Shown: positions 11,080 to 54,853 of the stretch, piece after piece | How positions within the stretch are numbered: the first letter of the stretch is position 1 | How the letters are laid out: every line of letters begins with the position of its first letter | Assembly: GCA_027022365.1 (NCBI GenBank) | Contig: JALVYU010000026.1 | Span: 1 to 64,000 of the forward strand | Reading direction: 5' to 3' | DNA length: 64,000 bases | Source: Desulfurococcales archaeon | GTDB lineage: Archaea; Thermoproteota; Thermoprotei_A; Sulfolobales; Desulfurococcaceae | Program-made: the position numbers and the translations under genes | Notes under the pieces: model-generated | What the model saw: only the letters and a program-made list of their open reading frames with translations | Told to the model about the DNA's origin: nothing | Database searches by the model: none

Positions 11080-11934
11080 TCATAGCTTACTAGACTTACA
11101 GTTTATTTCATCATTTTTTATTATAACACCGTATCTCTCTTGAAGCTCACAGAGAAAATCATCTGGGATAATCGCGACTGCCCCTCTGCTAGTCACAAGC
11201 TTATAGGCTTTAGGCAGTAGTTTAGATATAGTTGCTTCTTCAACTATCCAATCAACATATACAGGAGTTCTCGTCGTCCTAACAAATCCTCTCTGTCTCT
11301 TAAATCCGTACTTGTCCACGTATATTTCGCCAAGTCTTCTCCCATCAGTACATTTTCCACTACTATCACATTTCAGGAATTCATCGGTTAATCCCTTGTT
11401 TAGTATCTCATCGAGAACTCTACCAGTCGGAATTATGTTTGACCGTATAATGGATTGTTTTATCTCTTCATTCTTCTTTTCACCCGTTACGACGCGTGTT
11501 TTCTCCTTCTTAGCAAAACTGGTGGCCTTCTTTTCCTCAGCCTTGGGTTTAAAGCGGTTCTCCTTACTCTTTTCCTCTAGGGGATTTGATGTTTTCTTCT
11601 TATTATAACTAGGTTTTGTAAAGTTTGAGAACAACTCATCAAGTATGTCTAGCGGGCTTTTCGACGTATCGTTCGTTTTGGAAACGCTTTCTCGTTTCTC
11701 CGTCCCCTCTTTTTGCTCCTCCTTGATACTCGATTTGTTTTCAGGCGTTATTGTCTCTCTTGGGCCGTCAGGGTTAACTTTTGTTTGTATGTGTGAAGTG
11801 GAAGAACGGATCACGTTCTTTTCCTTCTTACTTTGGGTCTTACCACTACTTTTCTTCTGTGAACACAGAAACATATCCAGCGTTATTAGCCCCTTCTTTC
11901 TCACCTGCCTCTTTCTAGCCACCAATGCTAACAC
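11080..11934 (-). CDS. Lys/Glu/Ser-rich hypothetical protein with conserved-looking C-terminal domain
   Basis: 284 residues. Residues about 25-165 are low-complexity, strongly charged and probably disordered (Lys, Glu, Ser, Thr, few hydrophobics). Residues about 175-284 look folded: 'GRVLDEILNKGLTDEFLKC', a Cys pair, 'YVDKYGFKRQRGFVRT' and 'RGAVAIIPDDFLCELQERYG'. No family recognised. Start is GTG at 11934; a GTG at 11922 with GGAGTG upstream is an alternative. A TATA-like TTTATATC lies at about 11962-11970 on the same strand. The disordered basic arm suggests a nucleic-acid partner, which is inference only. Confidence 0.7.
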   Translation of the reverse strand: MLALVARKRQVRKKGLITLDMFLCSQKKSSGKTQSKKEKNVIRSSTSHIQTKVNPDGPRETITPENKSSIKEEQKEGTEKRESVSKTNDTSKSPLDILDELFSNFTKPSYNKKKTSNPLEEKSKENRFKPKAEEKKATSFAKKEKTRVVTGEKKNEEIKQSIIRSNIIPTGRVLDEILNKGLTDEFLKCDSSGKCTDGRRLGEIYVDKYGFKRQRGFVRTTRTPVYVDWIVEEATISKLLPKAYKLVTSRGAVAIIPDDFLCELQERYGVIIKNDEINCKSSKL

Positions 11935-12032
11935 TCCACAATCACTACTATATACGATCTGATATAAAGGGGATAATGACGATATGAGAACAAATTACCA
12001 AATCATTACATTGTTGAAAAACAGAGAAATTT

Positions 12033-12203
12033 AGCCCGCCCACGGGACACCGCCCCAGGTATTCCCCCAGCGGTGCCCCACCCGGGGAGCCGTCCCCGGG
12101 CATCGCCGGAGGGGGGTTCCCAGGTGCTTCTATTTGGCAGTTACCAGCCAAATATCATCTTGCACCCAGGAACCTGGCTCCGGCGATGTGGGCGGTTAGC
12201 CGC
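12033..12203. ncRNA. GC-rich, highly structured RNA candidate of unknown family
   Basis: A 170-nt GC-rich block in AT-rich surroundings, inside the 440-nt gap 11935-12374. It folds on either strand into a closed multi-branch structure: closing stem 12036-12042 with 12189-12195 (CCGCCCA/TGGGCGG); hairpin CACCGC 12048-12053 with GCGGTG 12070-12075; perfect 8-bp hairpin 12081-12088 with 12093-12100; an 11-bp perfect stem CATCGCCGGAG 12101-12111 with 12178-12188; inner stems GGTTCC/GGAACC and ATTTGGC/GCCAAAT. No SRP helix 8 motif, RNase P core or tRNA features found. T-rich runs flank both ends, so strand is undecided. The rest of the gap (12210-12374) is AT-rich with the aspS promoter. Confidence 0.7.
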
Positions 12204-12313
12204 ACCATTTATTTATTTAGTGATTTTATTCCTTATATATTTATAATTATAATTTCATGATATAGTATGCTCGTTACTAGATAGTGTTCATTATTTTTTC
12301 ACAATATAGAAGA

Positions 12314-18550: not shown

Positions 18551-18627
18551 GGCGATCAGCGCTTTGGCCCCACATCACCTTTCAGGATACCTCCCGGTTT
18601 GGGAGGTCCCCATTCATCATTTCCGCC
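18551..18627 (-). ncRNA. C/D box sRNA candidate with hairpin insert
   Basis: Read on the minus strand: terminal stem GGCG (18627-18624) with CGCC (18554-18551); box C AUGAUGA (18620-18614); a 28-nt segment holding hairpin ACCUCCC/GGGAGGU; box D' CUGA (18585-18582); spacer AAG; box C' GUGAUGU (18578-18572); a 12-nt guide (18571-18560); box D CUGA (18559-18556). The 12-nt D guide and K-turn-like stem fit archaeal C/D guides for rRNA 2'-O-methylation; the 28-nt first guide region is longer than usual. I could not name a target. It sits in a GC-rich 250-nt gap between priL and an unknown gene. Confidence 0.55.
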
Positions 18628-54757: not shown

Positions 54758-54853
54758 AATAATCAGAACGGCTCTTCTTCATCATCCTTCTATCAGTTCA
54801 GTTTCGCAGGCGTTCCTCATCAAGTTAATAGCATTATGTGTTGAGGATAATCA

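Follow-up and report, generated by a model that had tools for sequence, protein, structure and literature searches.

Many archaeal RNAs are bound by L7Ae at kink-turns (PMC5539422), and a '10/5/9' fold has been described for H/ACA RNAs (PMC4652768). Structured RNAs that stand alone and contain kink-turns, junctions and pseudoknots form an already known kind, and what is new in the RNA described here is the assembly of these parts. Among named families it can be set beside the Pyrococcus HgcG or Pab40 RNA (RF00064, H/ACA type), likewise a structured, GC-rich RNA of a hyperthermophile whose DNA is AT-rich. Unlike HgcG, it has no ANA box, and its junction and predicted pseudoknots differ. No Rfam 15 family fits the RNA, and we found no description of it in the open-access literature. 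It lies in a 64,000-nt stretch of archaeal DNA, the whole of which is referred to below as the window.

Location, strand and secondary structure

The RNA block (12032-12201) has a GC content of 67%, whereas the window averages 43% and the sequence on either side of the block 23-30%; of all 170-nt segments of the 64 kb, the one at position 12034 is the richest in GC. The block is located inside a 440-nt gap between the start of a minus-strand ORF (11934) and the start of aspS (12375), which are divergent genes. A first-pass annotation made from the sequence had reported a GC-rich block at this place in a gene-free gap of 440 nt, and our measurements agree on both points. The minus-strand ORF (11080-11934) encodes a 284-aa protein that was assigned to no Pfam family above cut-off; in several genera the C-terminal half of this protein is conserved next to the RNA or next to aspS. 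The minimum free energy (MFE) was -102.3 kcal/mol for the plus strand (z -7.0) and -116.9 kcal/mol for the minus strand (z -8.3), and neither value was matched by any shuffle.

In an alignment of 17 sequences, 94.4% of the structural cells were paired, and changes on both sides were observed in 49 of the 63 pairs. The covariation score was 0.657; shuffled controls gave 0.181, and slid partners never exceeded 0.120. Fitting the alignment to the model biases it toward the structure, although the margin is large. Compensatory changes beyond these controls indicate a conserved structured RNA. When read on the minus strand, the alignment contains 58 G-U cells and 6 A-C cells. Because G-U cells far outnumber A-C cells there, the RNA strand is the minus strand.

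Helix P1 joins the two ends of the RNA, and P2, P3 and P4 meet P1 with zero unpaired bases at the junction (Table 1). The first-pass annotation had proposed a multi-branched RNA of unknown family closed by a 7-bp outer stem, and had suggested aligning it with relatives to look for compensatory change. Such change proved to be massive among the homologues. The multi-branched form and the closing stem were both recovered; the outer stem has 8 bp rather than 7, with 3 more bp beyond a bulge, and the stems were refined to four junction helices together with two predicted pseudoknots that had previously gone unseen.

Table 1. Features of the RNA and its surroundings. Coordinates refer to the window unless a locus is named. 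The ends of the RNA (5', 12201; 3', 12032) were set by homology.
Feature	Coordinates	Strand	Basis
Whole RNA, 170 nt, 5' GGCUAACCGCCCAC ... GUGGGCGGGCUA 3'	12032..12201	-	full-length covariance-model matches in 12 genera; covariation
P1, 5' strand, bulge UAA, consensus 5' GGCYAR	12188..12201	-	covariation
P1, 3' strand, consensus GGCYA at 3' end	12032..12043	-	covariation
P2 lower stem, 5' strand	12178..12187	-	both-side changes in 10/10 pairs
P2 lower stem, 3' strand	12102..12111	-	covariation
P2 upper stem, 5' strand	12162..12170	-	covariation
P2 upper stem, 3' strand	12119..12127	-	covariation
P2 apical hairpin, above kink-turn-like motif	12131..12154	-	covarying pairs
P3 hairpin, absent from genus g5	12080..12101	-	covariation
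P4 hairpin, apical loop with both predicted pseudoknot strands	12044..12079	-	covariation; genus-swap tests
Predicted PK1, 5' strand CCAGGU, P2 internal loop	12172..12177	-	genus-swap tests
Predicted PK1, 3' strand ACCUGG, P4 apical loop	12055..12060	-	genus-swap tests
Predicted PK2, strand CCCCC, P2 internal loop, 3' side	12112..12116	-	genus-swap tests
Predicted PK2, strand GGGGG, P4 apical loop	12064..12068	-	genus-swap tests
Kink-turn-like motif, strand 1 (AA-GAU-GA)	12155..12161	-	sequence
Kink-turn-like motif, strand 2 (GA-A)	12128..12130	-	sequence
TATA-like promoter element AAATATATAAGG, ending 30 nt before first conserved RNA base	12231..12242	-	sequence
T-rich stretch after 3' end (AATTTCTCTGTTTTT), possible terminator	12017..12031	-	sequence
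L35Ae gene, locus L008	1712-1981		Pfam
L35Ae gene, locus L041	1745-2017		similar by eye

Homologues, promoter and gene neighbourhood

A DNA search detected copies in four further genomes of the same genus (one cut by a contig end) and in two genomes of another genus. A first covariance model was built from four full-length same-genus sequences and was followed by two refined models. With these, homologues were found in 12 of the family's 16 genera, at one copy per genome, and homologues missed in the strict genome searches were confirmed next to aspS. E-values from these models are rough because calibration used short random sequence, and several of the genomes compared are metagenome assemblies. 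The thirteenth genus, g8, has a reduced form of about 120 nt upstream of aspS (L077 and L078 found by the model, L076 by eye); this form retains the termini, and its pseudoknot is either missing or very short. No copy was detectable in genera g6 and g13, and g11 was left out of the presence/absence judgement because its aspS is only a fragment. Two of the homologues are in genomes matching Staphylothermus hellenicus (G018; PMC3236042) and S. marinus (G026; PMC3035234) in size, the S. marinus copy lying at 312007-312182 on the minus strand, and the family also includes a genome matching Desulfurococcus mucosus in size (G032; PMC3111991).

Outside the family, strict-filter searches of the order, the class and 398 phylum-wide genomes yielded no convincing homologue, and neither did 22 order relatives searched again with laxer filters. 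A match in genome G022 (L045) was attributed to chance, as its sequence context looks like large-subunit rRNA, and matches in G047 and G112 resemble small-subunit rRNA and tRNA. The plasmid search gave no match to the RNA. A motif search of viral contigs returned 93 loose pattern matches, and none of the 80 loci fetched fits the model. As far as these searches reach, the RNA occurs in a single family of hyperthermophilic archaea and nowhere else.

Upstream of nearly all homologues, at about -22 to -30, there is an A/T-rich box ending in AAG(G), which was read by eye, a simple scoring matrix having not always picked the box with this ending. The TATA-like box at a near-constant distance suggests that the RNA is a stand-alone gene, and the conserved promoter together with the structure suggests that it would be transcribed from its own promoter. 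Runs of T were found 3' of some homologues, not all.

The RNA always adjoins aspS (13 genera). In the window it points away from aspS, and in genome G014 it follows aspS, with both on the same strand. The downstream neighbour differs between genera, being an unknown protein of 260-306 aa, L35Ae or a converging P-type ATPase. Two genera, neither of them that of the window, have the L35Ae gene placed between the RNA and the gene of the unknown protein. We did not find the conserved same-strand downstream gene expected for a cis-regulatory leader, as the gene in this position varies or converges. The varying downstream gene and the arrangement in G014 argue for an independent gene.

Pairing between the P4 apical loop and P2

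The weakest-supported nested pairs were those across the P2 internal loop (alignment columns 34-37). A nested extension of P2 across this loop (GGUU/AACC), present in the MFE structure of the window sequence, showed no covariation and was rejected. Each strand of the internal loop has its complement in the P4 apical loop, and the partner sequences co-vary. The pairs CCAGGU/ACCUGG and CCCCC/GGGGG of the window correspond to CCAGAU/AUCUGG and GGCCCA/UGGGCC in genus g15, and counterparts were read in g5 (CCAGAC/GUCUGG), g7 (CCCCGG/CCGGGG) and g12 (CCCCGCA/UGCGGGG). When genera were permuted, the observed own-genus complementarity was reached in 0 of 20,000 permutations for PK1 and 2 of 20,000 for PK2. 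The nested alternative (L2a x L2b) gave no signal (8530 of 20,000). Related genera are not independent of one another, and these fractions cannot be taken as exact probabilities, but both pseudoknots stand in clear contrast to the nested control. Loop borders were taken from fixed alignment columns in these tests and had been set by hand in an earlier run. The P4 apical loop is thus predicted to pair with both strands of the P2 internal loop, forming a double pseudoknot.

A GA/GA kink-turn-like motif is located above the P2 loop in 7 of the 12 genera and is absent or degraded in the other 5, according to a table made by hand. Because L7Ae binds such motifs, the RNA is likely to form an RNP in genera that have the motif, and it is probably bound by L7Ae. 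With the motif missing or degraded in 5 genera, L7Ae binding cannot be the universal function.

P2 resembles archaeal H/ACA guide RNAs in its lower stem of 9-11 bp, its two-strand pocket and the bipartite pairing predicted across this pocket. In genera g1, g14, g15 and g16 about 10 layers lead to the sheared G-A (hand count), as in the '10/5/9' H/ACA fold. Unlike in the guides, whose two strands pair around an unpaired UN of the target, the paired strand is in cis, P2 is embedded in a four-way junction and the U before PK1 is not conserved. An H/ACA guide carries its ANA box directly 3' of the lower stem, 14-15 nt from the upper (GA) stem. No ANA box was seen there in the sequences read, in which P3 begins immediately after the P2 lower stem, and membership of the H/ACA guide RNAs fails because of this absence. 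The first-pass annotation had seen no obvious H/ACA frame; this is correct for a canonical one, although the shape of P2 is H/ACA-like.

Proposed role and comparison with known RNAs

We consider it rather probable, with room for doubt, that the block encodes an independent, trans-acting RNA that serves as the scaffold of a small RNP. On the minus strand, the transcript would begin at GGCYAR or a few bases upstream of it, driven by its own TATA-like promoter, and would end near GGCYA. Its four helices (P1-P4) would be arranged around a junction without an unpaired base, with P2 and P4 side by side and the P4 apical loop inserted into the P2 internal loop. PK1 and PK2 pairing would then give a rigid closed core. 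L7Ae would bind the kink-turn-like motif above the P2 loop, and the RNA would act in trans as a small RNP scaffold and not as the leader of a neighbouring gene.

The strict adjacency to aspS in 13 genera leaves room for a local regulatory role, and the block might act in cis on aspS, through a shared divergent promoter, or on the downstream gene; the L35Ae gene begins 30-75 nt downstream of the RNA in two genera. We regard a cis-acting element as unlikely, since the RNA points away from aspS, or lies after it in G014, the downstream genes differ and are on the opposite strand in some genera (L062 and L064, by eye), and a promoter of its own and a closed terminal stem are typical of an independent RNA. 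The covarying loop-loop pairing fits pairing in trans equally well as in cis, so that the P4 loop of one copy might pair with the P2 internal loop of another to form dimers or larger RNA-only assemblies. We give such homo-oligomers very little weight: short distances and the lack of a linker at the junction speak for pairing in cis, and no relative of such architecture is known. Parts of the block are near-palindromic, so that each strand partly matches the other, as might be seen in a recombination site, a mobile-element end or a chance palindrome. A DNA element of this sort has almost no credence and was excluded as the main explanation by the single copy, the promoter, the pseudoknot covariation and the G-U pairs on one strand only.

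The resemblance of P2 to an H/ACA hairpin allows the RNA to be read as H/ACA-derived, its 'target' being its own P4 loop, with an H/ACA-type RNP sitting on or modifying the RNA in cis. The two strands of the pocket pair with stretches of a single loop that lie 0-4 nt from each other and run in guide/target polarity, the lower stem, layer count and kink-turn are as described above, and a U is first in the dinucleotide preceding PK1 in 8 of the 12 genera. Even so, we find this derivation quite unlikely: the ANA box is absent after the lower stem, 4 genera lack the U, and its presence shows no significant association with the kink-turn (Fisher p 0.22). The best permissive Rfam match in the gap, weak and on the right strand, is HgcG, itself an H/ACA RNA, but its 16.7 bits fall far short of the 77-bit gathering score and the match came back only within the genus of the window (15.5 bits in L003; not listed in ten other homologous loci scanned), and identity with HgcG was rejected. 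A more specific proposal, which we judge improbable, is an H/ACA-type RNA carrying its own substrate, in which the P2 pocket would be permanently filled by the P4 loop, an L7Ae/Cbf5-type RNP would modify the RNA or be sequestered by it, and the four-way junction would replace the ANA-box anchor.

The scaffold RNA that we favour would add a well-supported orphan family with an unusual, covariation-backed double pseudoknot predicted in a four-way junction. Two of its homologues are in genomes matching cultured, completely sequenced Staphylothermus species, whose RNA is open to direct probing. In view of the likeness to a self-occupied H/ACA pocket, how guide RNPs yield new RNAs becomes a question that can be tested.

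Rfam gave no match at gathering score in the whole window, and the strong match that would have removed novelty from the first-pass reading did not appear; nor did the lack of covariation that it had named as counting against an RNA. That reading had also set the block apart from SRP RNA, RNase P RNA and tRNA, and here too it is borne out. ARAGORN gave no tRNA or tmRNA match. A C/D sRNA was rejected, as there is a single GA/GA motif within a long hairpin in place of C, D, C' and D' boxes flanking guides, and no C/D family match at the RNA. Elsewhere in the window there are two sub-threshold C/D sRNA matches on the minus strand, to sR5 at 54762-54823 (27.4 bits, gathering 40), a possible C/D guide RNA, and to sR3 at 18554-18624 (21.3 bits, gathering 41). 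The RNA resembles archaeal RNase P and SRP RNAs in being apparently stand-alone, GC-rich, kink-turn-containing and closed at its 5' and 3' ends, but it is neither of them, as both exist above cut-offs elsewhere in the same genome (RNase P RNA, RF00373, G000:C26:398802-399134, 165 bits; SRP RNA, RF01857, G000:C26:448027-448370, 125 bits). Unlike the known orphan structured RNAs that came from GC islands and comparative genomics, it is without any Rfam 15 family match; like them, it combines strong covariation with what appears to be an independent gene.
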